64,000 bases of DNA from Faecalibacterium hattorii (lineage in GTDB: Bacteria > Bacillota > Clostridia > Oscillospirales > Ruminococcaceae), in NCBI RefSeq assembly GCF_003287455.1, contig NZ_PRLC01000001.1, positions 62,001-126,000 of the forward strand, in the 5' to 3' direction. The notes beneath the pieces are model-generated. The model worked only from the letters and a program-made list of their open reading frames with translations. It did not search any database and was not told the origin of the DNA. Shown here piece after piece: positions 7,602 through 26,403 of this stretch; the stretch's first letter is position 1, and each line of letters begins with the position of its first letter. The translations under genes and the position numbers were made by a program.

Positions 7602-7630
7602 CTCATAAAGGAGCCTGTTATTTTCGCGTC
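7602..7630 (-). repeat. Leader repeat, copy 1
   Basis: Minus strand GACGCGAAAATAACAGG then CTCCTTTATGAGG. Directly follows the terminator at 7640. CTCCTTTATGAG can pair with CTCAT and AAAGGAG further on, covering the ribosome site of the 7295 gene. Confidence 0.8.
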
Positions 7631-7639
7631 AAAAATAAA

Positions 7640-7663
7640 GAGCCGCAGATTTCTCCACGGCTC
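7640..7663 (-). terminator. GAAA-tetraloop terminator, copy 2
   Basis: GAGCCGTGGA, GAAA loop, TCTGCGGCTC, then TTTATTTTT: a 10-bp stem with two G-U pairs. Follows the 7670 gene. Confidence 0.85.
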
Positions 7664-7669
7664 ACGCCT

Positions 7670-7855
7670 TTAGCAAGACAACTCAACCCAGCAATGGTAT
7701 TGTCCACAAGGCAGTGCGTCCCAACTCGGATGCTTCATCTTATAGGGGCATTGGTTGCAATTCATGATATTATCAGGATCTGCAAGAAATGCACGGATAA
7801 GATTATTGCCTTCGTTATTGGTCCAATCCACTTTGCTCCAATCTCTTGTTGCCAT
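7670..7855 (-). CDS. Small Cys-rich phage protein
   Basis: 61 residues with CNQCPYK and PCGQYHCW near the end, four Cys plus His likely to hold one metal. The ribosome site GGAGGTGAG is part of leader repeat copy 2. Function unknown. Confidence 0.6.
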   Translation of the reverse strand: MATRDWSKVDWTNNEGNNLIRAFLADPDNIMNCNQCPYKMKHPSWDALPCGQYHCWVELSC

Positions 7856-7864
7856 TTATCTCAC

Positions 7865-7894
7865 CTCCATAAAGGAGCCTGTTATTTTCGCGCC
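7865..7894 (-). repeat. Leader repeat, copy 2
   Basis: Minus strand GGCGCGAAAATAACAGG then CTCCTTTATGGAGG. The first part codes the last residues and stop (Ala-Arg-Lys-stop) of the 7882 gene; CTCC pairs with GGAG, which is the ribosome site of the 7670 gene. Confidence 0.8.
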
Positions 7895-8043
7895 TTCTCC
7901 TTGAAGTTCAGAGGTTTCACAGTACCCTCCCGTGCACACTCCGTCAGGCACTCGTTGCAGGGCTCGTCCGTCTCCAGCACCTTGAAGTTCTCGCACTTCG
8001 GGCAGTAGGTCGCATAGTCTACTTCGCGCATCCAGTCATTCAT
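7882..8043 (-). CDS. Small zinc-ribbon protein, 53 residues
   Basis: MNDWMREVDYATYCPKCENF start; CPKC and CNEC pairs form a zinc ribbon. It ends in KARK coded by leader repeat 2 and its start overlaps the stop of the 8036 gene. The gene is too short for usual length cut-offs but is flanked tightly on both sides. Confidence 0.6.
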   Translation of the reverse strand: MNDWMREVDYATYCPKCENFKVLETDEPCNECLTECAREGTVKPLNFKEKARK

Positions 8044-8554
8044 TGGTGAACTCCTTCCAATTTACTACGGTCACTTTCTTGCACTCCGGGCAGCGGAGCA
8101 TCCATCTTAACATAGGTAAGTTAATATCTTGTTCAACGTCACGAAAAGCACGGCCATGCTCATCCGTTAAGGCTTTGCCGCATGTACACGTAATATCCTT
8201 CATCGACTTTTTGTTTTCTTTTATCTGGATTGCAAACCTATCATCCAACTCCGGGTGCGTCTCCCGCTGGTTCAATGCCCAGAGCAGGTTCCAGCAGGCA
8301 GCACGCAGGTGGTCCTCGTCGTCCATACCGACCATGTACTTGGCCAGATGTCGTGCAGCACTGTCCAGAAGCGAATGCAGCGGGATACCCTTATCCACGT
8401 TGTGCTCGCCGTACTTTAATGCACCCTCCTCGCAGTGCTTGCTGACCTCCATGATGCCGTACCAAGGCAGAAGGTCCATCCGCCCCTTCCCTGCGTGCAT
8501 ATCACGCTTTGCACCGGTTTCAAATTCGGTGCGATCTCCAGAATCTTTGATCAT
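8036..8554 (-). CDS. dATP/dGTP diphosphohydrolase-type protein with C-terminal zinc ribbon
   Basis: 172 residues from MIKDSGDRTEF; this start has GGAG 9 nt upstream and equals the start of the 8907 gene product. FETGAKRD, GKGRMDLLPW, GALKYGEHNVDKG, SAARHLAKYM and AACWNLLWALN are the hallmarks of the phage family annotated dATP/dGTP diphosphohydrolase N-terminal domain (from memory), thought to reshape dNTP pools. A zinc ribbon (CTCGKA ... CPECKK) forms the C-terminus, about residues 125-165. With ThyX it makes up a nucleotide-metabolism set. Whether it has the full catalytic site needs an alignment. Confidence 0.7.
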   Translation of the reverse strand: MIKDSGDRTEFETGAKRDMHAGKGRMDLLPWYGIMEVSKHCEEGALKYGEHNVDKGIPLHSLLDSAARHLAKYMVGMDDEDHLRAACWNLLWALNQRETHPELDDRFAIQIKENKKSMKDITCTCGKALTDEHGRAFRDVEQDINLPMLRWMLRCPECKKVTVVNWKEFTNE

Positions 8555-8907
8555 TTTCTTTTTCTCCATGTGTAATAAACAGCATAAAGCTGATTGTGTT
8601 CTTTTAATCTATTGACAATTTGTTTGTTGATTTCGATATACGCTCTTGGAGCAAATAATTGTTCTGGAGCATTGATGTAACAGTATCTCTCGCTGAAAGG
8701 AATATGTTTTTCGCTTCGATCAACCAAGAAACGACCTGTAAAAGCACCGTCATCTCTGATGCAGAGATATTTCCAAATAGCAGACAGTGGGCTGCTGTCA
8801 TAAGGAACAAACATTGCATTGTGCTCTCCAAAATGCGTTACACGATGGCAATTAGCATTGATAACTTTGACAAGTTTCTTTCTGTTTTTCTTTGAAATAT
8901 TTCCCAT
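8551..8907 (-). CDS. Uncharacterised phage protein
   Basis: 118 residues starting MGNISKKNRKKLVKVI, with AGGAGGTTCTGCTA upstream. Basic first third, mixed alpha/beta remainder, no known motif. Start and stop overlap the genes on both sides. Confidence 0.6.
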   Translation of the reverse strand: MGNISKKNRKKLVKVINANCHRVTHFGEHNAMFVPYDSSPLSAIWKYLCIRDDGAFTGRFLVDRSEKHIPFSERYCYINAPEQLFAPRAYIEINKQIVNRLKEHNQLYAVYYTWRKRK

Positions 8908-9203
8908 TAGCAGAACCTCCTGATTCTTCCCTGCATAACCTTGTTGGGAATATCCAGCCACCGGATTTTGCACTTGTCCTTGTAGTCAGGACGCAGCTTC
9001 TGTAGAATCATCTTCAATGGCGGCCTCTTGATTTCTTCAAACAAGTCCATAAAACAAGCCGTCACTTTCTCGCTGCATTCCGCAATCGCGTTTAAGACAT
9101 CTGCAAGTTTCTCAGAAATCGTCGCAGCAAGCCTCAAAAAATCATAAATATCGCGCTTGGCACCGGTTTCAAACTCCGTGCGATCTCCCGAATCTCTAAT
9201 CAT
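8907..9203 (-). CDS. Protein sharing the N-terminal tag of the dNTP hydrolase-type gene
   Basis: 98 residues from MIRDSGDRTEFETGAKRD; the first 17 residues almost equal the start of the 8036 product, and about 55 nt of DNA around both starts are alike. After that the sequences differ: here follow helices (ISEKLADVLNAIAECSEKV) and a basic C-terminus (VMQGRIRRFC). It looks like a fragment of the hydrolase start fused to another domain. Start preceded by AAAGGAGGAAGACAA. Confidence 0.6.
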   Translation of the reverse strand: MIRDSGDRTEFETGAKRDIYDFLRLAATISEKLADVLNAIAECSEKVTACFMDLFEEIKRPPLKMILQKLRPDYKDKCKIRWLDIPNKVMQGRIRRFC

Positions 9204-9433
9204 TTGTCTTCCTCCTTTTTGAATCCTTGAAAGTCTCCTATCCCAAAGTTTCCATCTTTGCAATGGTGAACGTCACGTACATGCGCACCAATTCCACAGC
9301 CTTTCGGATACCATTTACCATCATAGGCTGCACCCGAAACGGATTCAATTGCCGTATTTTCACTAGCAGTCGTAATAGGCTCAAATAATTCTCCACACAA
9401 GCGGCACTTGTAAATTTCATGAAACAGTGTCAT
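9200..9433 (-). CDS. Zinc-ribbon protein, paralogue of the 6014 gene
   Basis: 77 residues. YKCRLCGELF ... HHCKDGNFGIGDFQG matches the 6014 product at both ends, with a longer central insert. The pair probably arose by duplication within the element. Confidence 0.65.
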   Translation of the reverse strand: MTLFHEIYKCRLCGELFEPITTASENTAIESVSGAAYDGKWYPKGCGIGAHVRDVHHCKDGNFGIGDFQGFKKEEDK

Positions 9434-9639
9434 CCGTTTTCCGCCTCCAACTTTTCAATAATTTTACCAATCGCGCTAATAACATAATTTACAAGGAAAT
9501 TCTGAAAAGCAGCATCCTTGGTGGAGCGAATCATTATTTTTAGCGCCAACTCGTCAGAAACTGCATAATCAATCATTTCTTTGTTGGCTTTTTCTACGAT
9601 TTCCTTGGGAAACAGTTCTCGAATATCATTACTTTCCAT
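9430..9639 (-). CDS. Small helical phage protein
   Basis: 69 residues, all helical (IVEKANKEMIDYAV ... VISAIGKIIEKLEAENG). The start lies inside the last codons of the helicase gene with GAAAGG upstream. Function unknown. Confidence 0.6.
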   Translation of the reverse strand: MESNDIRELFPKEIVEKANKEMIDYAVSDELALKIMIRSTKDAAFQNFLVNYVISAIGKIIEKLEAENG

Positions 9640-10852
9640 AAAATTTCCTTTCGTTAAATGCCTTCTTCGAGTTCAGCGCTCTCGAAATCGCTAGATCAAT
9701 ACCGCTCCTACTCTTCAGATGGTAGTACCAGAGATCCTTGTAAGGCGTATTCAGCCGGTCGATACGCCCAGACGCCTGTTCCATGATCTTGTAGGAGTAG
9801 TTCTGACTGTAAAATATAATGGTGTCCGTCTTGATGCAGTTCCAGCCTTCTGCCCCGGCGCTATATTGCACGAGATAGACCCATCGCTCTCCATCCGGAA
9901 TCGGTTGATGCTTATGCCCGTTCCATTGTGCTACTTCCACGCCTTCGTCATAGGCCAGATTCAGCAGAATATCCAGCTCATAGTCGAAGTTATAGAAGAT
10001 GATGACTCTAGGCCGGGTCATGCAAATATCCAGCACTTCCCGCTGGCGGCTCTCATCCGAATTGACGAGCTTCCGCAGCAGATAGCAGAACTCGCTGGCT
10101 GTCTCGATTGGCTTGTTCTCCCAAGGGTCCCAGCGATTCCGACAGATTTGCAAATATCTCGGTTTATCGTAGTCCACAAAGACGTTTTCATGGTGCGAAA
10201 CCGTTGCCCGTTCGAAATCCATGTCTACCAGTACCCGCTCCCGTAACCGCACAAGCCTCTGTGTGTTCAGATAACGGTCAATCTTTGGATATTTTGAGAA
10301 GCGGGCATAGACAACGTGCTGGTTATTGAACTCTGTACGATTCCGGAAGAATCCGTTTGCGATAAACACCGGAATATAATCCGTCCAGCAGTCACCGGGC
10401 GTTGCACTCAGCAGAATCCACTCGTTCTCCTTTGTGATCTTCAGGAACGATTTCACCCATGCACCGCTGCCAACAACGCGCTGTTCGTCAAATATAAAGA
10501 AAGCGTTTTTCGCGCCTATATATTTTCCAATGTTGTTCCATGAATCCACAACTACGGTATGCTCATAAATATCATGCTCTGGATCCGTAGACATGTAGAA
10601 ATGGGCCAATTCTTCATCCCATTCGCCAGTATCCCGCTTCCGAGCGGTCGTGATGATGTACAAATCCGGTGGTTCTGTCATCTTAACGTAATTTTCCGTG
10701 TTCACCTGCCCGTCAAACAACGTATAATAAAACGCCAGACTCGTTCTTGATTTGCCGCTCCCGACGCCACCGCAAAGGATGCATCCAATTTTCATCCGTT
10801 TGAGTGCATCCAACTGGTAGTCATAGAGCGTTACTCCTGCCATCAGTTTCAT
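9629..10852 (-). CDS. SF2 (SNF2/DEAD-like) DNA helicase
   Basis: 407 residues. Walker A is GGVGSGKS (near residue 27), motif II is FIFDEQ, motif III LLSATPG, and motif VI EQASGRIDRLNTPYKD near the C-terminus. This compact helicase type is usual in siphophage replication blocks beside VRR-NUC and polymerase genes, where it unwinds or remodels forks. The start codon overlaps the preceding stop (TAATG); the ATG 9 nt downstream (MAGVTLYDYQ) has a better distance to GGAGG and may be used instead. Confidence 0.85.
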   Translation of the reverse strand: MKLMAGVTLYDYQLDALKRMKIGCILCGGVGSGKSRTSLAFYYTLFDGQVNTENYVKMTEPPDLYIITTARKRDTGEWDEELAHFYMSTDPEHDIYEHTVVVDSWNNIGKYIGAKNAFFIFDEQRVVGSGAWVKSFLKITKENEWILLSATPGDCWTDYIPVFIANGFFRNRTEFNNQHVVYARFSKYPKIDRYLNTQRLVRLRERVLVDMDFERATVSHHENVFVDYDKPRYLQICRNRWDPWENKPIETASEFCYLLRKLVNSDESRQREVLDICMTRPRVIIFYNFDYELDILLNLAYDEGVEVAQWNGHKHQPIPDGERWVYLVQYSAGAEGWNCIKTDTIIFYSQNYSYKIMEQASGRIDRLNTPYKDLWYYHLKSRSGIDLAISRALNSKKAFNERKFYGK

Positions 10853-11043
10853 TACCTCCATTCCCTGTGCACATGGATTGCGGACTTTCTGCAATGTTGC
10901 TCATAAGCCAGCAGTGCAATTGTCGCTTCCTGCTCGTCCTCGCCTTCGCCCAAAATGGTGTACGACCAAAGCTCTTTGCCGTTCTTCGTAAAGACCTTCC
11001 ACTCTTTCTTAGTAGAGTCCGTGCTTTTTGCAGTAGGACGCAT
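10852..11043 (-). CDS. Small uncharacterised phage protein
   Basis: 63 residues, basic at both ends with an acidic middle (LGEGEDEQEATIALLAYEQH). AAGGAGGGAC precedes the start, which lies inside the previous gene. Coupled to the helicase by TAATG. Confidence 0.6.
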   Translation of the reverse strand: MRPTAKSTDSTKKEWKVFTKNGKELWSYTILGEGEDEQEATIALLAYEQHCRKSAIHVHREWR

Positions 11044-11230
11044 ATTGCAGTCCCTCCTTATCGGCTTCTCTCATGATTTCCTGAAGGGTAAGCTTCTTCG
11101 GTTTCGGCTCGGCCTTCTTCAGAAATCGCTCTTTCCGGCATTTGTCGCAGTACCTCTTGCCCGGATAGACGTCGTACATCATCACCCCACAGTCCACACA
11201 CGGTTTATCGATCTTCCAAACTTTGCCCAT
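11009..11230 (-). CDS. Small zinc-finger protein
   Basis: 73 residues. CVDCG and YCDKC form a zinc site near residues 11-31, followed by a Lys/Pro stretch and a helix (LTLQEIMREADKEGLQYASY). Its leader carries the box AAAGGAGATTGATATTTATG, shared with several genes here. The leader begins just after the minimal tRNA-like structure at 11263-11310. Confidence 0.65.
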   Translation of the reverse strand: MGKVWKIDKPCVDCGVMMYDVYPGKRYCDKCRKERFLKKAEPKPKKLTLQEIMREADKEGLQYASYCKKHGLY

Positions 11231-11262
11231 AAATATCAATCTCCTTTATTCTGAGCATTTGC

Positions 11263-11310
11263 GAGTCATGCAGGAATCGAACCTGCCGTAACAGCCCTTG
11301 CTGATGACTC
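11263..11310 (-). ncRNA. Minimal tRNA-like structure: acceptor stem plus T-arm
   Basis: Minus strand: GAGTCAT pairs perfectly with ATGACTC (7 bp acceptor stem). GCAGG TTCGATT CCTGC is a complete T-arm with a canonical T-loop. In place of D-arm and anticodon arm there is only a 4-bp hairpin CAGC AAGG GCTG and a 5-nt linker. The total is 48 nt, with no anticodon. It lies in the 135-nt gap between the DUF3846-type gene and the 11009 gene, after a terminator. It could be a deleted tRNA gene or a processing signal for RNase P/RNase Z. Confidence 0.6.
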
Positions 11311-11319
11311 AAATAAAAA

Positions 11320-11343: not shown

Positions 11344-11365
11344 TCCGTTCTACACTAGCTTGAAG

Positions 11366-12960: not shown

Positions 12961-15900
12961 TCACCTCACATCAAAATTTCTTGCAGCTTCATCCTGTGCA
13001 TCACTCCACGGCAAGTCGGGTGCCGTCCACGGAGAAACACCGGAATCGTCCGCGGCAAACCACTCAAAGTCGCCGTACTTCGAAATTTCATCGACGGCTT
13101 CTTTGACTTCCTTATTGAAATAGCCCTTGTTGATCGCATCCTCCATCTGGAGAGAATAAACGCACTCGCTTTCCAGCCAGCGGTAATCCTTTGCGCCAGT
13201 GACCGAACTGTACTTTCGTTCGCCGTCTTCGGTCATTCCAGCTTCCCGCACCAGAAGAGCGCCGCCCTTTCCGGGCCTAATCGGGCAGAACTGACCAACG
13301 CGGCCCACAAAAATATAATTGTGCTCCCCTGCGGGCAGATCCTCATTCTTGTCCAGATAGATAGCACCTTTCGACACGGTTTTGGTCTCGCAAAGGTCAG
13401 AGAATACGATTGGCTCCTTCGAGAAGAGTGTCTTGAAGACATACGGGACTTGGAACTGGGTGCCCGTGGCCGTCCATTGGCCCCCTTTCTTCTCATTTTT
13501 CTCTGGAATATACCCATACTGGTCCTTGCAGCGGTCCGCGTCCATGTACCTTGCAATATAAACGGCGTTGTTCACAAGGCACATCTTCTCATAGGTAGCC
13601 TCGTGCTCGAACGTGTATCCGTACTTTTTCGCAAAGTTCATGCAGAAATCGATAATCTCCGGCGTAGCTTCAGGAATCTTGATAGAATCCGTCTTGATAT
13701 GTGCCACCGTAAAGCCGCGCTGTTGTACTTCATCCTGCAAAGTGCGCATAAATAAAGCCCCTCGAAGCGCCACGATATTGTTGGCGTTCTTGGGGTTGCG
13801 GAAGGGGTTATCAAAAGTTGCGCTGGTCAGACCGTAGACCGAGTTGATGGCGATCTTCAGTGCCTGTGCCAGTGCTTTTGCCTGACCGGGATCTTCCAGA
13901 TACTTCGCCAGTTTGCCGTCAAACAGCTTCTTAGCCTTGTCGTACTCGCCATGTTTTACATGGATACGTACATCCATCAGGTCATTGAAGTACTTGGTGT
14001 ACTCGCCAAAGTAATTCATGGCGACGGCGGAGTGCGGATGCAGCGACGCAACATCCAGCAGCGCAACATTGCTGTACATGTTCGGTTCTGCATAGACATA
14101 ACCGCCCATGCCGAGATCTGTGCCTCGGAACATGTTGTGCATTTTTCCATCCTCTCCGCGCACCCATTCGTAACCGGGAAACGCATTGATGATGTTTCGG
14201 TCGGTCAAAATATCAGGCTCGACCTCGACCACCGAATCCGATTTTCCCGTCGCAAGGTCGGTATAGACCAGCTTGGGGTGCTTTTCCCGTCCAAATATAA
14301 TTCGAGTCGTCAGACTATTGGTCGTGTCGTTGACCGTCATCCCCGCAAGGTCTGCCAGAATCTCACGCGCCACGAAATCCGCCTGTCGATCTTTGGAATA
14401 GAACAGTGCTTCCGTTGCCACCACGTCGTTGTCGCAATACTCGGCAACCTTGTCCCAGAGACTCTTCGGCACCGGCTGGTCCCACGGAAGTCCCAACTCC
14501 TGATGGTGGATGCCCAGCTCGATCTCAAACTTCTTCAGGCTCTGCTTTTTCGACGAGAAGTCGTAAATATCCGTGTAGGAGAGGTTGTACGCTTCTCCGA
14601 AGAACCCCGTATGCTGGTTGACGATCTGGTTCGACAGCGCATAGATCTGCTCGTTGGACATCCCCAGCATCCGTCCCCAGAGAATGTGGTTGTCGTACTT
14701 GCGGTTGTTGAAGCCGATCAGCCGGTACTTGGTCAGACTTTCGATCTCCGCCGGGGAGGGGTTGATCATCCGGTAGACTTTATCCTGCTTGGCAAACTTC
14801 CAGTTCACCAGCAGCAAGTTCGGAAACACTTCACAGTCGAAAAATATCAATGGCTTTTCTTCGCCGGTGGGTGCAGCACGCTCCACATCATCCTTCGACT
14901 TGAAGTGTATTTTTGATACGATTTTGAGGCATGCGTCTGCCTGATTGGTGCTGTTGGCCGCAAAGGCGAGGATCACGTTCCGCATGTCATCAATATCATA
15001 GGGAACATTCCCCTCGTAGGCTTCTTCCACGATGTGCGCAATGAAGTCCACGCTGGGCTTGGTGTAGGGGCTGATCTCTTTGGCGAGTGCTTTCTTGATG
15101 AGAACGCGCAGATGCCTCTCATCCTGAATCTGCTTTGTATCAACCATTTTTTCTCCCTTCAATGGTAGGCCGCTGCTGATGCTGGCAATGGGAATATCAT
15201 TGCATTCTGACAACTTTCTCCGGAGCGAGGATTTTCCCGTGAACACCTTGACCTCGATGCTCTCGTCGTAGACCCTGCTCAGTTTGGCCGCTTCACCGGT
15301 ATAAATATAATGCAGATGAATCCCTGCACCGGATTTGCTCAGCTCTGCGTATGTCTTGGGCCATTTGGATGCAGCTTCGAGGTTTCGCTCAAAGCTCTTT
15401 TTCCCATCTGGCCCCGGAATATCAAAGTCGATCACAATGTGGTTCTCCGGAACCTTCACGTAGTGCAGTTTCGAAGTGTCCAGATTTCCCAGCTTGGTTC
15501 TGATATTCTCCCACTTTTGCAGGGGCGTGCCATTTTCCGTCGCATACTGGGCCGGGCAGTCCTTGCAAATATCATTAAAGAGAGAATGCTGCTCTTTGAA
15601 TTCGATCCACGACGAGGGTGGGGGGTCTTTTTTCTCCTCACCCCCTAGGGGGGCATCCGCAAATTCCTTGAATTTTTCCGCCTTGAAACCGCTGTAATAG
15701 CTGCGCACCCGCTCGCCGTTCACGTCAGTTTCCCGCTCCTTGTAATCTTCAAAATAGTTCATCAGCTCTTCCCGGAAGGCACGGCGCGAATACGGATACG
15801 GCACATTCGCAGCCGTATTGTATTCGTTGTACATGGCCCATGCCCGCTTCAGGGAGACGCCGTTTTCCTTCTTGAAAATATAATAGGAATCCAGCATGAA

Positions 15901-16965
15901 ATTGTAGAAATCGTTGGATGCGCCCATCATACGAGTCGGAATATAATCGTCGTAGAAATGTTTATTCTCATCGTATACCTGTTTGCAATGCCATGCGATG
16001 CCGCCCAGCTCAAAGTTCACCTTTTCTACAAGGTCAAGGTACTTTTTCGCCGGGATCTTTTCGCCGCTGGGGTTCACATCAACGAGCCGTCGGATCAGAC
16101 CCGACTTTGCATCGGTGATCTTGACCGGCTTGTTGGTGCCCAGAAACAGGAAACACTTGAACTGGTTCGCATAAGCGCTCCGGAATTTCTCGTTTACCAT
16201 CATCGTCTCGTGGGAAACGAGCGAGTTCAGCCGGGTGTTGTCCTCGATATGCGACAGATCACCGTCGTGCTGGATCGCGATCAACGGGTTCGATTTGAAC
16301 GCTTCCAGCGCAAACGCATTGGAGGATGACCCCAGCGCCTTCGAGTCGAAGGTGCCGCAGTACCCCTCGAACAGCTTCTCCACGATGTTCAGCACAGTGG
16401 ACTTGCCGCTTCCGGGCGGGCCATACAGAACGAGGAACTTCTGGATCTTTTTCGAGTCACCATTGACGATGGCACCGATAGCCCATTCGATCTTCTCTCG
16501 CTCTTCCGGAGAATATAAGGTACCAATGAGCTCGTCATAAGCGCTGATATCCCCTTCCTCCAACGGATACGGCAGCCGCTTGGACGCATAGCTGTCCTTC
16601 TTGACCGGGGTGTTTGCAAATATCAATGTGTCATCGAGGGTGTGATAGTTGTCCCGCATCTGTCGCTGGCAGTATTTGTGCCAGTTGTCGATCATGCCGG
16701 ACTCGGCATCCCACATATGGAGTACCCGATAGCTGTCGTTGAGCAGTTGCTTGTGCTCCTGCACATAAATATCAAGCTCCCGGTCAATGAGCTGAAGGGC
16801 GTCCTGCTCTTCCGTGCTCCAAAGGCCGCGCTCTTCCAACCAGATCGCATAGAAGTCTGAGCCCCGGATCATCAAGTCTTTGGACTTTTTGATGATGAAC
16901 TTCGGGTAAATTTCGATCGTGTTGCGTTTTCCCATCCGCGTCGCGATCATCAGGAAATCAATCAT
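12961..16965 (-). CDS. SF3 helicase - primase-like domain - exonuclease - family B DNA polymerase fusion
   Basis: 1334 residues in one uninterrupted frame. Residues about 170-300 form an SF3/D5-type helicase: Walker A GPPGSGKS (182-189), Walker B LIAIQHDG (228-235), sensor FLFLGTNKPVK (272-282), Arg finger GLIRRLVDV. Residues about 460-600 look like an archaeo-eukaryotic primase: IVIDFDIPGPDGKK (510-523), SGAGIHLHY (545-553) and IEVKVF (570-575). Residues about 705-860 are a DnaQ-like proofreading exonuclease (FFDCEVFPN, GFNNRKYDNHIL, YCDNDVVAT). Residues about 945-1330 are a family B polymerase: motif A DVASLHPHSA (971), motif B KIAINSVYG (1037), motif C KTDS (1091) where DTDS is usual. It would act as a nearly complete replisome for the element. 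A start at internal MGKRNTIEIY cannot be excluded. Confidence 0.85.
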   Translation of the reverse strand: MIDFLMIATRMGKRNTIEIYPKFIIKKSKDLMIRGSDFYAIWLEERGLWSTEEQDALQLIDRELDIYVQEHKQLLNDSYRVLHMWDAESGMIDNWHKYCQRQMRDNYHTLDDTLIFANTPVKKDSYASKRLPYPLEEGDISAYDELIGTLYSPEEREKIEWAIGAIVNGDSKKIQKFLVLYGPPGSGKSTVLNIVEKLFEGYCGTFDSKALGSSSNAFALEAFKSNPLIAIQHDGDLSHIEDNTRLNSLVSHETMMVNEKFRSAYANQFKCFLFLGTNKPVKITDAKSGLIRRLVDVNPSGEKIPAKKYLDLVEKVNFELGGIAWHCKQVYDENKHFYDDYIPTRMMGASNDFYNFMLDSYYIFKKENGVSLKRAWAMYNEYNTAANVPYPYSRRAFREELMNYFEDYKERETDVNGERVRSYYSGFKAEKFKEFADAPLGGEEKKDPPPSSWIEFKEQHSLFNDICKDCPAQYATENGTPLQKWENIRTKLGNLDTSKLHYVKVPENHIVIDFDIPGPDGKKSFERNLEAASKWPKTYAELSKSGAGIHLHYIYTGEAAKLSRVYDESIEVKVFTGKSSLRRKLSECNDIPIASISSGLPLKGEKMVDTKQIQDERHLRVLIKKALAKEISPYTKPSVDFIAHIVEEAYEGNVPYDIDDMRNVILAFAANSTNQADACLKIVSKIHFKSKDDVERAAPTGEEKPLIFFDCEVFPNLLLVNWKFAKQDKVYRMINPSPAEIESLTKYRLIGFNNRKYDNHILWGRMLGMSNEQIYALSNQIVNQHTGFFGEAYNLSYTDIYDFSSKKQSLKKFEIELGIHHQELGLPWDQPVPKSLWDKVAEYCDNDVVATEALFYSKDRQADFVAREILADLAGMTVNDTTNSLTTRIIFGREKHPKLVYTDLATGKSDSVVEVEPDILTDRNIINAFPGYEWVRGEDGKMHNMFRGTDLGMGGYVYAEPNMYSNVALLDVASLHPHSAVAMNYFGEYTKYFNDLMDVRIHVKHGEYDKAKKLFDGKLAKYLEDPGQAKALAQALKIAINSVYGLTSATFDNPFRNPKNANNIVALRGALFMRTLQDEVQQRGFTVAHIKTDSIKIPEATPEIIDFCMNFAKKYGYTFEHEATYEKMCLVNNAVYIARYMDADRCKDQYGYIPEKNEKKGGQWTATGTQFQVPYVFKTLFSKEPIVFSDLCETKTVSKGAIYLDKNEDLPAGEHNYIFVGRVGQFCPIRPGKGGALLVREAGMTEDGERKYSSVTGAKDYRWLESECVYSLQMEDAINKGYFNKEVKEAVDEISKYGDFEWFAADDSGVSPWTAPDLPWSDAQDEAARNFDVR

Positions 16966-20521: not shown

Positions 20522-20851
20522 TTACTTTTCTTCACAAGTTTCCTCGTCAGAAGTCACATCTTTCGACTCGACATCAATGACCTCGTCCTTCTTTGCCTTC
20601 TTGCTTGCAATCTTCTCCTTGATGTGCTTAAATCCCTTCTTTACCAGCGGAACGCCATACTTCACGCCAACGGCAACGCCAAGCACCACACCAGTGCCAA
20701 CCTTGACAATCGTGCCAAAGTCAACCCCGGAGCTGCTTTCGCAGTCGTTGTTATAAGCAGGGTTCTCTGCCTCAGCAGGAACAACGCTCTCAACAGGAGC
20801 GACCTCCACAGAAGTCTCGTTCTCCATAGTCACATTATTCATTTCGTCCAT
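20522..20851 (-). CDS. Acidic protein with one membrane segment
   Basis: 109 residues: acidic N-terminus, membrane segment around 50-68 (GTIVKVGTGVVLGVAVGV), basic helix (KHIKEKIASKKAKK) and acidic tail. AAAGAGGTAACAAAA precedes the start. The 5' leader holds leader repeat 3. Confidence 0.6.
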   Translation of the reverse strand: MDEMNNVTMENETSVEVAPVESVVPAEAENPAYNNDCESSSGVDFGTIVKVGTGVVLGVAVGVKYGVPLVKKGFKHIKEKIASKKAKKDEVIDVESKDVTSDEETCEEK

Positions 20852-20898: not shown

Positions 20899-20929
20899 CC
20901 TCCATAAAGGAAGATGAATTTTTCGCGTC
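20899..20929 (-). repeat. Leader repeat, copy 3
   Basis: GACGCGAAAAATTCATCTTCC then TTTATGGAGG. CTTCC can pair with GGAGG. About 20 nt after the stop of the 20950 gene. Confidence 0.8.
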
Positions 20930-21794: not shown

Positions 21795-22019
21795 TCAGAT
21801 ATGTCCGTGCTGCTTCAAATTCTCGAAGCGAATTTCTGTTTCACGCTGATAATCACGCTCCAGTTGGATCCGGTAACGGATATATTCGCACAGTCTGGTC
21901 GGCTGCATGAACAGGTACATTGCGATCGCGTTCAGTGTCCGCAGTCCGTTCAGTGCAGTGTGCTTCAGCAGCTTCACCATTGCCTGATCCAGAGTTGCAT
22001 AATAATCATGGTTGTACAT
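21795..22019 (-). CDS. Small helical phage protein
   Basis: 74 residues from MYNHDYYATLDQAMVKLL; the start has the full box AAAGGAGATTGATATTTATG, so longer starts upstream are rejected. Middle is a hydrophobic helix (LNAIAMYLFMQPTRLC). Leader repeat 4 precedes it. Confidence 0.65.
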   Translation of the reverse strand: MYNHDYYATLDQAMVKLLKHTALNGLRTLNAIAMYLFMQPTRLCEYIRYRIQLERDYQRETEIRFENLKQHGHI

Positions 22020-22056: not shown

Positions 22057-22085
22057 CTTCCATAAGGGAGACTGAAATTTTCGCG
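22057..22085 (-). repeat. Leader repeat, copy 4
   Basis: ACGCGAAAATTTCAGTCTCC then CTTATGGAAGAG. TCTC can pair with GAGA. Begins 1 nt after the stop of the 22087 gene. Confidence 0.8.
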
Positions 22086-22251: not shown

Positions 22252-22272
22252 AAATATCAGTCTCCTTTGCTC

Positions 22273-23136
22273 TCAGAATGGTAAATCATTTTTCAGTTTT
22301 TCGATCGTGCTTTTTGTAACGCTCTCTGCTAACCCTTCGTACGGATCAAAATTCAAATAATCCTCGATTGGCTCCTCAAAGGCAGTGACATAATATACTT
22401 CCAGACCGTCATCTGTTTGTTGCTTTGCATAGCTGAAATCGATCCAACAATTGTCCCACATTTCGTTCATGTAGTCGATGCTCCAGCCCCGACCGTTCAG
22501 TTCCGGAATGAAGTCAAGATTAAGGTATCCGTATACGTCATTCAGTGCAATATAGCCATTGACATTGAAGTCGCGGTTTGCTTCATAGAACGCCGTCAGA
22601 AGCTCAGCTTCCGTTGCATGAAAATATCTTTTTCCGATAGGGTCATAGCAAAGCAGCTTTTCGGTTGCGGCATTCTTGACTGTCTGATCTTTTTCCGCCA
22701 TCTCGATGGATTTGGCAGTCTCGAAGATCTCATCTTCCTGTTGATCGCCAATGGTTCGCCGCACCTGCGCCCGGTAGGTCTGACACGTCCTTCCCAGCGC
22801 CATATATGCCGCGGTCAGGCTTGCGAGCTGCTTCTTGTTCAGCGCGTTGGAACCCAGAATGCACGCAATGGTGCCACCGCCCAGAATCACTGCCGGTACG
22901 TAGGCCTTCCAGCATACCAGAACGATTTGCTTCTTTGTCGGTGGCTCCTCCACAATGCCCTGTTCATCTTCGTTGTATTTTCGCAAGGCTTCGTCCACTT
23001 CGAGCAGATGCTTCGCCTTCGTGGTTGCCCGGCCAGTCTCAATGGCTGTAGCCACAACACCCACCGATGCCGCCACCGCCAGAATAGTCCCGCCGTGCTT
23101 ACGTAAGAATCTCGCGCATGCTTTCGTCAGTTTCAT
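22273..23136 (-). CDS. Two-helix membrane protein, DUF6353-like, paralogue 3
   Basis: 287 residues from MKLTKACARFLRKHGG (GGAGGTTGAACATC upstream). Helix 1 about 17-37 (ILAVAASVGVVATAIETG), helix 2 about 77-97 (YVPAVILGGGTIACILGSNA), then KQLASLTAAYMALGRTCQ as in paralogue 1, and a soluble C-terminal domain with YFHATEAELLTAFYEANRDF. The last 100 residues differ most among the three copies. Confidence 0.7.
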   Translation of the reverse strand: MKLTKACARFLRKHGGTILAVAASVGVVATAIETGRATTKAKHLLEVDEALRKYNEDEQGIVEEPPTKKQIVLVCWKAYVPAVILGGGTIACILGSNALNKKQLASLTAAYMALGRTCQTYRAQVRRTIGDQQEDEIFETAKSIEMAEKDQTVKNAATEKLLCYDPIGKRYFHATEAELLTAFYEANRDFNVNGYIALNDVYGYLNLDFIPELNGRGWSIDYMNEMWDNCWIDFSYAKQQTDDGLEVYYVTAFEEPIEDYLNFDPYEGLAESVTKSTIEKLKNDLPF

Positions 23137-23168
23137 GATGTTCAACCTCCATTTTGAAAAAAATTAAA

Positions 23169-23192
23169 GAGCCTACGATTTCTCGTAAGCTC
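23169..23192 (-). terminator. GAAA-tetraloop terminator, copy 6
   Basis: Same stem and loop as copies 4 and 5; follows the 23205 gene and precedes the 22273 gene. Confidence 0.85.
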
Positions 23193-23204
23193 TCGCCTTT
23201 ACAA

Positions 23205-23426
23205 TTAGCTCTTAGATTTGGTGTAGTATTTCACTGCATTTTCAATCAGCCATCTTGGAACATCCCTAAACGTGCACTTTGCTACATAGAGCAACGCGTC
23301 TGCGCCAACATAGTTTCCCCTATCAAAAAGTTCTTTCCATGCGCATACATATCCGCATACTCCTCCATATACCAATGCTCCACATCCAAGAAGCCCAATC
23401 GCTCCAATCTTCAATGCTTTTTTCAT
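23205..23426 (-). CDS. Small membrane-anchored protein
   Basis: 73 residues. MKKALKIGAIGLLGCGALVY is a membrane helix, like the start of the 7295 product; the rest is soluble. GGAGGTATAACTT precedes the ATG. Leader repeat 5 stands upstream. Confidence 0.6.
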   Translation of the reverse strand: MKKALKIGAIGLLGCGALVYGGVCGYVCAWKELFDRGNYVGADALLYVAKCTFRDVPRWLIENAVKYYTKSKS

Positions 23427-23464
23427 AAGTTATACCTCCAAAATATAATTCCGAGACTAATCAT

Positions 23465-23493
23465 CTCATAAAGCATCGAGATTTTTTCGCGTC
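23465..23493 (-). repeat. Leader repeat, copy 5
   Basis: GACGCGAAAAAATCTCGATGC then TTTATGAGAT. ATCTC pairs with GAGAT. Overlaps the stop of the 23492 gene. Confidence 0.8.
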
Positions 23494-23716
23494 AGATCAC
23501 ATGATTCTTCTTCAAAATATCTACGAGCTGTGCCTTGGTCACCTCGGCGTCCAGCTCCAGATGCACCTTCATTTTCTGCTCCTTTTCAGACCAATTCGCC
23601 TGTGCATCCTTCAGCTCCAGCTCAACACCGGGAAATTGCTTTTTCAGCATCTTATTGATGATCTGCGAGATGATGCGGCGCAGAAAACTCGACCGGATCA
23701 GCATAATGTCCTCCAT
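23492..23716 (-). CDS. Small uncharacterised phage protein
   Basis: 74 residues, helix-strand pattern (FLRRIISQIINKMLKKQF then VELELKDAQANW ... MKVHLELDAEVTK). Soluble. TTTTTGGAGGTACTACATC before the ATG. It follows the tRNA-like gene in the transcript. Confidence 0.6.
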   Translation of the reverse strand: MEDIMLIRSSFLRRIISQIINKMLKKQFPGVELELKDAQANWSEKEQKMKVHLELDAEVTKAQLVDILKKNHVI

Positions 23717-23745
23717 GATGTAGTACCTCCAAAAATATAAATGAA

Positions 23746-23814
23746 AAAGAGAATGGGCCTAGAACCCATAACCTCCACCCGAAAGTGGCGCTCTACCAAT
23801 TGAGCTATCTCCTC
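23746..23814 (-). tRNA. tRNA-like gene, anticodon uncertain (CGG, proline, is the best fit)
   Basis: Minus strand folds as a cloverleaf of 69 nt: acceptor GAGGAGA/TCTCTTT (7 pairs with G-U), D-arm GCTC AATTGGTA GAGC, anticodon arm CCACT TTCGGGT GGAGG, T-arm ATGGG TTCTAGG CCCAT. Oddities: an A-A mismatch in the anticodon stem, a variable loop of 2 nt, T instead of purine at position 57, no encoded CCA. The anticodon loop TTCGGGT matches proline CGG tRNAs. Lies between the 23868 and 23492 genes and starts inside leader repeat 6. It may be a decayed tRNA or a tRNA-like processing element. Confidence 0.5.
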
Positions 23815-23841
23815 CATAAAGGCAACTGAAATTTTCGCGTC
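23811..23841 (-). repeat. Leader repeat, copy 6
   Basis: GACGCGAAAATTTCAGTTGCC then TTTATGGAGG; its GAGG end is the first base pairs of the tRNA-like gene. Confidence 0.8.
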
Positions 23842-23867
23842 TGAAAAAGATAAGAGGGCGTGATCTT

Positions 23868-24053
23868 TCAGATATTGTCCTCTTCCAGATTGCTCTCTTG
23901 CATCTCTTTCAATGCCTTCTTCTCGTTCCACTTTGCCCATGCTGCAAATGCACCAAGGATTGCCGACGACAATCCCGCACCAACTCCGCAGCACTTAAAA
24001 TAAGTACCCCAAGTCCAAGGTTTGTTCATAAAGTTCTTAATAGCTTTCATCAT
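23868..24053 (-). CDS. Membrane miniprotein, 61 residues
   Basis: MMKAIKNFMNKPWTWGTYFK, then one helix (GVGAGLSSAILGAFAAWAKW) and an acidic end. GAAAGGAGAAAAACT precedes the tandem ATG codons. Downstream of leader repeat 7. Confidence 0.6.
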   Translation of the reverse strand: MMKAIKNFMNKPWTWGTYFKCCGVGAGLSSAILGAFAAWAKWNEKKALKEMQESNLEEDNI

Positions 24054-24084
24054 AGTTTTTCTCCTTTCAATGTAAGCCCTCTTA

Positions 24085-24115
24085 CCTCCATAATAGAAGC
24101 TGTATTTTTCGCGCC
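24085..24115 (-). repeat. Leader repeat, copy 7
   Basis: GGCGCGAAAAATACAGCTTCT then ATTATGGAGG. CTTC pairs with GGAG; followed by a second small hairpin GTAAG AGGG CTTAC. Confidence 0.8.
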
Positions 24116-24124
24116 GAAAAGAAA

Positions 24125-24148
24125 GAGCCCATGCTTTCGCATCAGCTC
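24125..24148 (-). terminator. GAAA-tetraloop terminator, copy 7
   Basis: GAGCTGATGC, GAAA, GCATGGGCTC; nine of ten positions pair. T-rich tail follows. Ends the 24201 gene. Confidence 0.8.
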
Positions 24149-24200
24149 TTCTCCGGGACGGCCCAACTCAAGTTGTGTTCAACCGGTCTATCGTCAAATA

Positions 24201-24338
24201 TCAGTCTTTCGACGGCCGGAATGCCCGACACAACAGCCATACAATAACGGTTACAATCGCCATTGCAATTGCTGTCATAATCATCTGCCCAACCGTAATC
24301 GAATAATTCCAAATTTTCTTAAAAATAGATTCGTTCAT
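24201..24338 (-). CDS. Membrane miniprotein, 45 residues
   Basis: MNESIFKKIWNYSITVGQMI start; residues about 16-37 are a membrane helix, tail CRAFRPSKD. GGAGAATGTAAT before the ATG. Its stop TGA is part of a TGATATTTG octamer. Function unknown. Confidence 0.6.
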   Translation of the reverse strand: MNESIFKKIWNYSITVGQMIMTAIAMAIVTVIVWLLCRAFRPSKD

Positions 24339-24366
24339 ATTACATTCTCCTTTTCTTGGGCCTTTA

Positions 24367-24396
24367 TCCCATAAAGCACGGAGAATTTTTCGCGCC
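24367..24396 (-). repeat. Leader repeat, copy 8
   Basis: GGCGCGAAAAATTCTCCGTGC then TTTATGGGAT. CTTTAT pairs with ATAAAG across GGG. Directly after the stop of the 24396 gene. Confidence 0.8.
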
Positions 24397-24758
24397 TAGA
24401 TCAAACTCCTGTCAAACACAGTCTCCCACCGTTCCCGTTTGATGGGCTTCATGCGCAGGGCCCACATGATCTGTCGGACGGTCACAGTCGGATATTCTCC
24501 ATTTTGATTTCTCCGCTTGGCGTGACTGTCAAAGTATTCCTTGAAGCCATTTCGCAGATAAATTTTGTCGGTCAGCCAAGGGTCGATGGCACTCCAGTAC
24601 GTTGCTTTTGTCTTCTCATTGTACCGCTGTTGGATGACACATAGTCCTTTCGAACCCTCCCGGTACAGCGTGCATACACGGTACACCGGATGATTGCAGC
24701 GGTAGACACTTCCGTAGTAGCTCGTCCATTCGCGGGGCGGCATTTCATGATATCGCAT
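24396..24758 (-). CDS. Conserved mobile-element protein of unknown function
   Basis: 120 residues. CNHPVYRVCTLYREGSKG, IDPWLTDKIYL and VTVRQIMWALRMKPIKRERW form a pattern I know from many Clostridia phages and integrative elements, function unassigned. The terminator at 24769 ends only about 10 nt before the start, and no clear ribosome site is visible; the start may be leaderless or lie at the second ATG (MPPREW). Confidence 0.7.
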   Translation of the reverse strand: MRYHEMPPREWTSYYGSVYRCNHPVYRVCTLYREGSKGLCVIQQRYNEKTKATYWSAIDPWLTDKIYLRNGFKEYFDSHAKRRNQNGEYPTVTVRQIMWALRMKPIKRERWETVFDRSLI

Positions 24759-24768
24759 AAAAAATAAA

Positions 24769-24798
24769 GAGAGCCCGCAGCTTTCGCCACGAACCCTC
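24769..24798 (-). terminator. GAAA-tetraloop terminator, copy 8
   Basis: 13-bp stem (GAGGGTTCGTGGC with GCTGCGGGCTCTC, several G-U) and GAAA loop, then TTTATTTTTT. Longest of the family; follows the 24812 gene. Confidence 0.85.
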
Positions 24799-24811
24799 CT
24801 CGGTTCCTCCT

Positions 24812-25216
24812 TTACTTTCTGTCCGTAAAGCCTCGTTTCATTTCATGGAGTCCATCGCTAATTGCTCTGGAAAGCTGCGTCACACCGCCAGCCTCAAGGA
24901 TCGACCAGTAAATCGTCATAGCGCCCGTTCCCAGAAACGTCACGCAGCTCAGTCCGAACTTTGCCCATTCAAGGCGACGCGCCTTCGCAGCCTTTTCCTG
25001 ATCGTTGATGACCTCTTGGCCCTTACGCCGTTCTTCATCTTCTTTCAGATTCTGGTCGCTCTCCTGCGCCTCTGCCTTGATCTGCATGTCGTACAGCTGC
25101 AACGCTGCCTTCGCCGTGTTCGCGTACTCGTCCGTACCCGGTTCCAGATCCTTCAGTTTTGCCAGCGATTGCTTCGCCGCTTCCTTCAGCAATTCTTTGT
25201 TTTCGTAGTTTTCCAT
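24812..25216 (-). CDS. Coiled-coil membrane protein
   Basis: 134 residues: a long charged helix (about 1-78), one membrane helix around 88-108 (LSCVTFLGTGAMTIYWSIL) and a short tail. AAAGGAGAAATTCAAA precedes the ATG. Leader repeat 9 lies upstream. Confidence 0.65.
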   Translation of the reverse strand: MENYENKELLKEAAKQSLAKLKDLEPGTDEYANTAKAALQLYDMQIKAEAQESDQNLKEDEERRKGQEVINDQEKAAKARRLEWAKFGLSCVTFLGTGAMTIYWSILEAGGVTQLSRAISDGLHEMKRGFTDRK

Positions 25217-25252
25217 TTTGAATTTCTCCTTTACAAAGTAATTTCGGAGTTT

Positions 25253-25283
25253 CCTCCATGAAACAGCACGTTATTTTCGCGCC
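25253..25283 (-). repeat. Leader repeat, copy 9
   Basis: GGCGCGAAAATAACGTGCTG then TTTCATGGAGG; the most divergent core (TTCATG). GTTTC pairs with GAAAC. Like copy 2 it codes the Ala-Arg-Lys-stop end of the gene before it. Confidence 0.75.
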
Positions 25284-25510
25284 GTAATTTTCTTGACCCG
25301 AAGCACGACCTTCTCGTCTTTTGTAAGGCTTTCAGGGTTCATGTCAAGGTCAAGGAACATGTAGTTCGGTGCGTCCTCGTCTCCCGGCGCGATCACAAGG
25401 TTTCCTGCCGTGCGTTGGTCTTCGCTGAGCTGGAACCCGATCGCCACACCGACGAGGAGGGCCATGCCAAAGATCAGGATGCCAAAAATCAATCCAAGTT
25501 CTGCGTTCAT
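25271..25510 (-). CDS. Membrane-anchored phage protein
   Basis: 79 residues: N-terminal membrane helix (LIFGILIFGMALLVGVAIGF), then a beta domain (AGNLVIA ... YMFLDLDMNPESL ... VVLRVK). The domain pattern is familiar from Clostridia phages without a role. AAAGGAGAATTCAAA before the ATG. A degenerate leader repeat may lie at about 25532-25559. Confidence 0.65.
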   Translation of the reverse strand: MNAELGLIFGILIFGMALLVGVAIGFQLSEDQRTAGNLVIAPGDEDAPNYMFLDLDMNPESLTKDEKVVLRVKKITARK

Positions 25511-25574
25511 TTTGAATTCTCCTTTGTACTACTATAAAGTGGATTTCGGTCGTTTGCGTGATGAAAAAATAAAA

Positions 25575-25598
25575 GAGCCTACGATTTCTCGTAAGCTC
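25575..25598 (-). terminator. GAAA-tetraloop terminator, copy 9
   Basis: Same stem as copies 4-6, tail TTTTATTTTTT; after the 25606 gene. Confidence 0.85.
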
Positions 25599-25605
25599 TT
25601 ACGCC

Positions 25606-25839
25606 TTAGATGTCGTTTCGAATCAGGAATAAATCATTCTTGCTTCGAGTTGCTCTCACAATTCCTCCTGCCCGGATCAATGTAATTGCATTTACATAAG
25701 CCGCGCGTGCATTTTTTGCATCCTTGTATTCGTCTGTATTCACATACATCACTTTCTGGTTGCTTTCAATAAACACCCGCACCTTATCCATTGCGTTCAC
25801 ATAGCCCCGGTCAAAGTTCGTCTTTACTCGATAGTACAT
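25606..25839 (-). CDS. Small soluble phage protein
   Basis: 77 residues from MYYRVKTNFDRGYVNAMDKV with AAAGGAGATTGATATTTATG at the start. Alpha/beta pattern, basic second half. Unknown function. Leader repeat 10 lies upstream. Confidence 0.6.
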   Translation of the reverse strand: MYYRVKTNFDRGYVNAMDKVRVFIESNQKVMYVNTDEYKDAKNARAAYVNAITLIRAGGIVRATRSKNDLFLIRNDI

Positions 25840-25875
25840 AAATATCAATCTCCTTTCAAATTCCGGAAGACATCT

Positions 25876-25904
25876 CTTCCATAAAGCGCGGAGATTTTTT
25901 CGCG
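25876..25904 (-). repeat. Leader repeat, copy 10
   Basis: ACGCGAAAAAATCTCCGCGC then TTTATGGAAGAGAT. ATCTC pairs with GAGAT. Confidence 0.8.
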
Positions 25905-25955
25905 TTGTTTCGAAGCATTCTATGCTAGGTTAGAAAATTCTATGCAAAAAGAAAA

Positions 25956-25977
25956 GAGCGTATGTTTCCATACACCC
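25956..25977 (-). terminator. GAAA-tetraloop terminator, copy 10
   Basis: GGGTGTATG, GAAA, CATACGCTC (9 bp) then TTTTCTTTTT; after the 25996 gene. Confidence 0.85.
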
Positions 25978-25995
25978 GTTTTCCGGTAGAATCCA

Positions 25996-26142
25996 TCAGC
26001 GGATACCACACCGAACATCATTCAGCATGAGGAGTTCCTCTCCTTCGTTCCAGCCAGCATACGGGTCGCTCATCGACTCGTTAAATGCCTTCAGGATCGA
26101 ATTCATCATTTCCTCAAAACCATTCACAATATTCTTCAGCAT
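25996..26142 (-). CDS. Helical miniprotein, 48 residues
   Basis: MLKNIVNGFEEMMNSILKAF start, ends LNDVRCGIR. TATAGGAGGAAACTACT gives a strong ribosome site. Lies between leader repeat 11 and terminator 10. Function unknown. Confidence 0.55.
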   Translation of the reverse strand: MLKNIVNGFEEMMNSILKAFNESMSDPYAGWNEGEELLMLNDVRCGIR

Positions 26143-26171
26143 AGTAGTTTCCTCCTATAATTGGTTTATTT

Positions 26172-26202
26172 CTTCCATAATAGGAGCCGAAATTTTCGCG
26201 TC
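26172..26202 (-). repeat. Leader repeat, copy 11
   Basis: GACGCGAAAATTTCGGCTCCT then ATTATGGAAGAAAT. ATTTC pairs with GAAAT. Confidence 0.8.
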
Positions 26203-26216
26203 TGCGTAAAAAATAA

Positions 26217-26238
26217 GAGCCTGCGTTTCCACAAGCTC
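26217..26238 (-). terminator. GAAA-tetraloop terminator, copy 11
   Basis: GAGCTTGTG, GAAA, CGCAGGCTC (9 bp), tail TTATTTTTT; after the 26248 gene. Confidence 0.85.
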
Positions 26239-26247
26239 CATTTTGAT

Positions 26248-26358
26248 TCAGTGTTTTTTCTTTGTTCTTTGCTTCACCTCATTTGTCTTTGCTCCGATCA
26301 GTTTTGCAATCCTGACCAAGATCACAACGATCAAAATCCAGAGAATCAAATTAAACAT
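26248..26358 (-). CDS. Membrane miniprotein, 36 residues
   Basis: MFNLILWILIVVILVRIAKL, then a basic tail ending RTKKKH. AAAGGTGG precedes the start and is itself paired in leader repeat 12. Function unknown. Confidence 0.6.
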   Translation of the reverse strand: MFNLILWILIVVILVRIAKLIGAKTNEVKQRTKKKH

Positions 26359-26374
26359 TTTTCATACCACCTTT

Positions 26375-26403
26375 CTCATAAAGGCGGCTGTATTTTTCGC
26401 GTC
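26375..26403 (-). repeat. Leader repeat, copy 12
   Basis: GACGCGAAAAATACAGCCGCC then TTTATGAGAAAGG. CCGCCTTT pairs with AAAGGTGG over 8 bp, which hides the ribosome site of the 26248 gene. Overlaps the stop of the 26402 gene. Confidence 0.8.

Follow-up and report, generated by a model that had tools for sequence, protein, structure and literature searches.

A strand-biased intergenic repeat of a Faecalibacterium prophage as a probable promoter for the phage's own single-chain RNA polymerase

A 64,000-nucleotide (nt) stretch of Faecalibacterium hattorii DNA (NCBI RefSeq assembly GCF_003287455.1, contig NZ_PRLC01000001.1, forward-strand positions 62,001 to 126,000; the window throughout) holds part of a prophage in which one short sequence recurs ahead of small genes. 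We conclude that these repeats are very probably promoters of some kind and, with a probability of roughly 0.78 as judged from the sequence evidence, that they serve the single-chain two-barrel RNA polymerase encoded by the prophage itself, the promoter of the polymerase included, rather than acting as RNA elements. The motif is repeated and oriented, in its exact form it occurs nowhere else in the host genome, and the polymerase is encoded by the same phage. In a wider formulation, which we regard as having a good chance of being correct, a sigma-independent promoter code, CGCRAAAWWWACA-N4-C-TWTWATG, in which the G is +1, would serve an extensive lineage of single-chain phage polymerases possessing their own promoter-reading helix-turn-helix (HTH) domains. 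This code would be kept across phages of Bacillota and Actinomycetota (33% to 60% GC, with Lactococcus in variant form) and would drive at least a dozen short small-gene units per phage, tRNA mimics and the attenuated operon of the polymerase.

The first-pass annotation of this DNA had described twelve copies of the repeat with rigid spacing and a single orientation. All twelve are present at the places it gave and all lie on the minus strand, the coordinates listed there being those of the TTATG end of a 25-mer. In 11 of the 12, exactly 11 nt separate CGCGAAAA from NTTATG, the exception being the copy at 25281, which reads TTTCATG. The pattern CGCGAAAA-N12-TTATG has 11 exact matches in the 2.79-Mb genome, every one of them inside the prophage element, and a reversed control pattern has none in the same genome. 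Scanning 104 kb of the contig with a matrix revealed a 13th copy at 1903-1879 on the minus strand, absent from the earlier list because it reads CGCGATAA; otherwise the scan returned three weak matches with scores of 10.1-11.6. The element therefore contains 13 copies, all on a single strand. Downstream of the twelve original copies lie genes of 36-134 codons and, in one case, an abutting tRNA-like gene, in line with the earlier description of a regulon-like element placed before small genes. The copies are as follows (coordinates in the window; aa, amino acids; ORF, open reading frame).

26377..26401, minus strand: motif copy 1, before a 36-aa ORF at 26248-26358
26176..26200, minus strand: motif copy 2, before a 48-aa ORF at 25996-26142
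25880..25904, minus strand: motif copy 3, before a 77-aa ORF at 25606-25839
25257..25281, minus strand: motif copy 4 (TTTCATG variant), before a 134-aa ORF at 24812-25216
24370..24394, minus strand: motif copy 5, before a 45-aa ORF at 24201-24338
24089..24113, minus strand: motif copy 6, before a 61-aa ORF at 23868-24053
23815..23839, minus strand: motif copy 7, its last base being the first base of a predicted tRNA-like gene
23467..23491, minus strand: motif copy 8, before a 73-aa ORF at 23205-23426
22061..22085, minus strand: motif copy 9, before a 74-aa ORF at 21795-22019
20903..20927, minus strand: motif copy 10, before a 109-aa ORF at 20522-20851
7868..7892, minus strand: motif copy 11, before a 61-aa ORF at 7670-7855
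7604..7628, minus strand: motif copy 12, before a 91-aa ORF at 7295-7570
1879..1903, minus strand: motif copy 13 (CGCGATAAAAACATCCCCTTTTATG), upstream of consecutive homologues of gp53, gp54 and gp55 of Faecalibacterium phage FP_oengus (Oengus)

The genes behind the motif between 20522 and 26358 (minus strand) are tiny, and several have a single membrane span by eye.

The observation stands and is larger than first noted. A motif family was built from viral-contig loci (79) that encode relatives of this prophage's DNA polymerase; removal of near-duplicate loci reduced a first set from 80 to 71 and a larger set from 168 to 149, and the copies with enough flanking sequence for the logo and for later tests numbered 474 of 478 and 607 of 614, respectively. 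The consensus is a 25-mer, CGCRAAAWWWACA-N4-C-TWTWATG, followed by purines. An iterated matrix found 478 sense versus 10 antisense sites in the 71 loci of the first set, two of which had no sense site, and a single site in dinucleotide shuffles of 30 of these loci. The larger set gave 614 sense versus 17 antisense sites, and its box pairs were spaced rigidly, with 375 at the exact 5-nt gap and at most four at any other gap, which bears out the earlier remark that such spacing suits a protein-binding site. The first-pass annotation had also proposed a search for copies outside this element; hundreds exist elsewhere, which favours a function. The bias extends to seven named phages, whose records, mostly incomplete, had been kept outside matrix building. 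At a score of 11 they hold 64 sense sites and one antisense site, in stretches with a GC content of 0.33 to 0.60:

Oengus: 15 sense, 0 antisense
Lactococcus phage 1706: 2 sense, 0 antisense
Lactococcus phage P078: 1 sense, 0 antisense
Arthrobacter phage Circum: 9 sense, 1 antisense
Streptomyces phage Rima: 13 sense, 0 antisense
Gordonia phage Chikenjars: 8 sense, 0 antisense
Rhodococcus phage ReqiPepy6: 16 sense, 0 antisense

Among species genomes, 112 stretches match the strict form of the motif, 48 of them once and 64 in several copies, and in these multi-copy stretches sites never occur on both strands at a score of 13.

The location of the copies relative to genes indicates where transcripts might begin. 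In 538 of 607 copies, the next 130 nt contain a ribosome site and a start codon, the distance from the end of the motif to the start codon having a median of 31 nt. In these 538 copies the ribosome site is separate from the motif, so that an analogy drawn earlier with the start-associated sequences of actinophages, which overlap the ribosome site at the start codon, is not supported. Terminator-like T runs lie directly upstream of 31% of the 607 copies, compared to 11% at a control position. Further reference points are tRNA genes, of which ARAGORN predicted 21 in the 149 loci, 10 without and 11 with an encoded CCA end. All 10 genes that lack CCA (from the window and loci L079, L087, L111, L035, L056, L073, L095, L105 and L120) begin at or shortly past the end of a motif, at positions 25, 26, 26, 26, 27, 27, 28, 29, 32 and 33, whereas none of the 11 CCA-bearing tRNAs begins at positions 25-33, one of them starting at position 69. 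So clean a 10/11 split would arise by chance once in 352,716 cases if the genes were independent, and their independence is incomplete. The representative in the window is the following.

23743..23815, minus strand: tRNA-like gene without CCA, called 'tRNA-???' by ARAGORN, with an Rfam tRNA match of 48.9 bits at 23745-23814 and a short anticodon loop by eye

Since this gene starts at the last base of the motif, its RNA must begin at or before about position 25. The sequence data thus suggest an RNA start one to a few bases after TWTWAT, as opposed to the approximately seven expected of a sigma factor. By eye, several of the CCA-less genes have 6-nt anticodon loops; they are possibly tRNA mimics or decoys.

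The 13th copy stands ahead of an operon that encodes an RNA polymerase. A 924-aa reading frame, open across the window edge, is the homologue of Oengus gp55, which is annotated as an RNA-dependent RNA polymerase (RdRP) and belongs to family phrog_4291. Homologues of gp53 and gp54 precede the polymerase gene, and a homologue of gp56, likewise present in the window's contig, follows it. The features of this operon are listed below, the 89-aa protein being given at its positions in loci L111 and L114.

1520..1825, minus strand: homologue of Oengus gp53 (annotated endonuclease), matched stretch, 84% identity
1021..1458, minus strand: homologue of Oengus gp54 (annotated exonuclease), matched stretch, 84% identity
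1..1000, minus strand: RNA polymerase, N-terminal 333 residues of 924 aa, the gene running beyond the window to contig position 60226
L111:31391-31660: Oengus gp56 (phrog_4303), 89 aa, directly downstream of the RNA polymerase, with a homologue at L114:17933-18199

The small gp56 protein has no Pfam match and is a candidate partner of the polymerase. As for the enzyme, the DxDGD signature takes the form DFDGD, which is invariant in 65 aligned polymerase proteins and present in the enzyme of the window's element. Around it, Pfam RdRP models matched below threshold in the three members scanned, and HTH matches occur near both ends of the protein, the C-terminal one resembling sigma-70 region 4. 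An AlphaFold2 model calculated from 65 sequences (predicted local distance difference test, pLDDT, 79.6; predicted template-modelling score, pTM, 0.65) retrieved QDE-1 as its best PDB match (expect value, E, 7.5e-10), followed by the phage polymerase P74 gp62 (E 1.6e-6), and a P23-45 protein was among its matches to viral models. An earlier model from 15 sequences (pTM 0.44) had no PDB match at E<=0.001, and the global template-modelling (TM) scores of the fold matches are only about 0.25-0.33. Modelling hence supports a single-chain two-barrel RNA polymerase of the QDE-1/phage clade at the level of fold class, not of structural detail. The polymerase is carried by 250 phage records. In the ReqiPepy6 record a similarity to a 'structural protein' of Lactococcus phage 1706 is noted; presence of the polymerase in the virion would account for its use on early genes. 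Enterococcus and Listeria records, considered as negative controls, were dropped; among the matches listed, theirs is distant and covers no more than about one third of the polymerase.

Several comparisons connect motif and polymerase. Of the 64 Oengus proteins, six were detected by tblastn in all seven other records, namely six of the named phages (in part) and the G020 element: the DNA polymerase, the helicase, the endonuclease, the exonuclease, the RNA polymerase and its 89-aa neighbour. Starting from the motif, we examined 38 bacterial genomes that hold a cluster of copies; 30 of them carry the RNA polymerase, as does a further such genome, G405. The background was 2 of 148 genomes, the window's own included, and comes from the window's family only, whereas the motif-first set spans many families; the E limits were 0.001 for the motif-first set and 1e-30 for the background, and all 30 motif-first positives pass 1e-100. 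Polymerase presence was tested within 80 of the 112 stretches (47 multi-copy and 33 single), covering 41 of the 47 and 32 of the 33; five of the six remaining multi-copy loci share a contig with a tested locus, and the sixth, L276, lies in G405, where a match was found. Genomes with a single motif match gave nine positives, comprising four also present in the cluster test, G405, G416, which shows weak HTH-type matches only, and three others. After removal of the cluster genomes, the polymerase was present in 3 of 27, a much lower share than among cluster genomes, with G416 as a further one of the 27. Starting from the polymerase instead, the one other positive genome of the family has eight motif copies within an 80-kb stretch, each on the same strand as the polymerase. 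In 84 of 102 loci, the 3.5 kb preceding the polymerase contain a copy scoring at least 7, and in 66 of 79 distinct loci the upstream copy is 840-960 nt away. According to these sequence comparisons, the motif is tied to a phage lineage and to that lineage's polymerase, and another gene of the lineage may read it.

A number of results count against assigning the motif to this polymerase. Nearby copies are missing from 18 of the 102 polymerase loci, and the polymerase was not detected in eight of the 38 cluster genomes or in three motif-rich contigs (L037 with 16 copies, L080 with 11 and L090 with 8); the genomes and contigs in question may be fragments. The RNA polymerase is found in 34 of 37 contigs bearing the DNA polymerase, and the DNA polymerase in 20 of 21 bearing the RNA polymerase. 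Because the two genes travel together, co-occurrence cannot single out the RNA polymerase as the motif reader, and we gave up joint presence with the DNA polymerase as a way to discriminate. The 10 CCA-less tRNA-like genes include four whose phages are close relatives of one another (window, Oengus, L079 and L087). Phage P078, with its one sense match at score 11, has two antisense matches at 9 or more, and the two good matches of phage 1706 are to a variant form of the motif. In the 49 of 134 kb scanned of phage SPbeta, no good match was found on the late-gene strand (best score 8.0), the other strand having one match at 12.1. YonO of SPbeta is likewise a single-chain phage RNA polymerase, but direct comparison with the polymerase studied here revealed no significant sequence similarity. 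Finally, TATAAT is the commonest hexamer (166 of 607 copies), which would suit the host's sigma-A, and similarity to TTGACA shows a slight rise at distances of 16 and 18 bp before the hexamer (2.01 and 1.90 bases compared to about 1.5).

The last two points belong to the main rival explanation, a promoter of the host RNA polymerase in which TWTWAT is the sigma-A -10 element and a phage activator bound at the CGCRAAAWWWACA box replaces the -35 element, much as an activator replaces the missing -35 at the middle promoters of phage T4. The near-invariant T24 (591 of 607 copies) and the rigid spacing to the upstream box would fit such an arrangement, and the 89-aa neighbour of the polymerase could be the activator, albeit one without a Pfam match. 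At the position of the -35 element itself, however, the similarity to TTGACA falls below background (1.23 bases at 17 bp), and only 6-8% of the 607 copies have four or more TTGACA bases at 16 or 18 bp. The extended -10 sequence TGn occurs in 6.4% of copies versus 6.5% expected. An A at the second -10 position is the key base for sigma-A; it is present in just 2 of the 13 window copies, eight of which read CTTTAT, and in 348 of 607 in the family. Moreover, with a start 7 nt past the hexamer, 8 of the 10 tRNA-like genes would be missing part of the acceptor stem, as judged from their predicted 5' ends. We therefore consider a host promoter unlikely and infer that the reader is the phage polymerase rather than that of the host.

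That the motif works at the RNA level, either as a site of processing or as a structured leader, and so gives tRNA-like RNAs and mRNAs defined 5' ends, is in our estimate very improbable. Such a role would account for the tRNA-like 5' ends located at the motif, and hairpins starting at positions 25-28 are indeed enriched, with stems of at least 3 in 8 of 13 window copies (23% expected) and stems of at least 4 in 18% of the family (7.6% expected). The first-pass annotation had described what looks like covariation in a hairpin formed between bases inside and after the boxes. In the window, this pairing is at chance level, 57 of 200 permutations of the 13 copies reaching the observed value; in the family, the mean longest stem of 3.71 versus 3.58 is reached by none of 30 permutations, the excess being tiny. 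Processing is also at odds with the CCA-bearing tRNAs of the same set, which do not start at the motif, and with the terminator-like T runs just upstream, which would leave little RNA to process. Least probable of all is a stoperator or other repressor site of a prophage immunity system, an analogy already raised in the first annotation. Stoperators are similarly asymmetric, oriented and repeated in intergenic gaps, but their sequence partly varies with immune specificity, as described in a section of one phage genome report (PMC5559632), whereas the sequence seen here occurs in phages from several host genera and keeps a set position with respect to tRNA-like 5' ends. The same two properties set it apart from actinophage stoperators and start-associated sequences in general, which, in the portions of that literature available to us, are oriented repeated intergenic motifs too but act as repressor sites or sit at ribosome sites.

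If the repeats are promoters of the phage polymerase, a plausible sequence of events would be that an HTH near one end of the enzyme, either the N-terminal one or the C-terminal one similar to sigma region 4, binds the CGCRAAAWWWACA box and that the polymerase core melts the TWTWAT stretch. Transcripts would then begin on the G of TATG, or no more than about two bases from it, and open with purine-rich sequence; the small-gene region would in this way be split into numerous short units of transcription. The operon of the polymerase itself has a copy at its head, where a hairpin following the motif could attenuate transcription and thereby, possibly, provide self-feedback of the enzyme.

1843..1879, minus strand: leader hairpin, possible attenuator, -18.8 kcal/mol in a 60-nt fold, beginning at the last base of copy 13

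Leaders of the RNA polymerase operon contain a hairpin plus T-rich sequence in 68 of 79 distinct cases, 47 of them with a stem starting at positions 25-28, by a lenient test that 218 of all 607 motif copies also pass. From its sequence, the hairpin with a T-rich tail at the predicted start of the polymerase-operon leader looks like an attenuator or a small RNA. An ATAGAAT-like core is present in 18 of the 79 distinct leaders of the nuclease-nuclease-RNA polymerase operon.

Promoters of the T7 type are short and conserved, with the start at their 3' end and purine-rich first bases, features that the present motif would share; unlike in T7, the enzyme here is of the two-barrel type and, with the G taken as +1, the CGCRAAAWWWACA box would occupy -24 to -12. 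Among two-barrel enzymes, excerpts of two reports describe late promoters of phage phiKZ that consist of TATG with the G as +1 and middle promoters with AAanTTACc centred near -24 (PMC4666361, PMC7618050). Our motif likewise has AAAWWWACA and ends in TATG, and the region-4-like C-terminus of our polymerase recalls the sigma-like subunit of the phiKZ enzyme, which has a region-4 counterpart according to the available part of one of these reports (PMC7618050). The phiKZ enzyme is, however, multi-subunit instead of single-chain, and its motifs, as far as these excerpts go, belong to separate promoter classes, whereas here they occur together at a fixed spacing; the likeness is one of resemblance only. 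A further precedent comes from phage P23-45, whose gp96 and gp64 are presented in parts of one article as single-chain two-barrel polymerases with repeated upstream motifs, one motif tracking the polymerase gene among relatives (PMC10770324). The motif described here also tracks a single-chain polymerase, one whose fold matches P74 gp62. Sequence similarity to the P23-45 polymerases is confined to the surroundings of the active site (E 0.15-0.5), and the term 'helix-turn-helix', which applies to matches in our enzyme, is absent from the main text of the P23-45 article (PMC10770324). For YonO, the consulted passages of a 2017 paper state that the promoter sequence was undetermined (PMC5467207), and repeats carrying promoters are mentioned in part of a halovirus study (PMC8707807). 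The accessible sections of genome papers on Arthrobacter, Gordonia, Microbacterium, Rhodococcus and Faecalibacterium phages do not mention the motif (PMC5513430, PMC5559632, PMC7302621, PMC13313380, PMC5883640), and the partial texts returned by our literature search describe no promoter for the polymerase of this phage group; the repeat may already have been noticed in ReqiPepy6.

Should our assignment be correct, a short DNA sequence and one 100-kDa protein would constitute a testable transcription system that could perhaps be moved to other settings. The assignment would also account for the way genes are controlled in many phages infecting gut and soil bacteria, those of the 250 records with the polymerase, and supply anchors for their unnamed small genes. 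A TATG start in common with phiKZ would inform the question of how two-barrel polymerases recognize promoters in the absence of a host sigma factor.

The window belongs to a prophage whose closest named relative found is Oengus, with 85% identity in the DNA polymerase; its remaining features are the following.

27265-28500: integrase, part of the prophage
12961..16965, minus strand: helicase/primase-DNA polymerase of 1334 aa (phrog_4210, DUF5906), a marker of the phage lineage
18835-19821, 20950-21732 and 22273-23136, minus strand: three DUF6353 paralogues without an assigned function, among many small genes

Two further repeats are distinct from the motif. Four near-identical terminator hairpins (GAGCTTACGAGAAATCGTAGGCTCTT) lie between small genes at about 25600, 23195, 21790 and 20505 on the minus strand and form a separate repeat family. 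The short sequence CACGC(AA/GG)ACGACCG occurs at about 25560 and about 27150, likewise on the minus strand, upstream of two genes that have no good motif copy, and is perhaps a different regulatory site.

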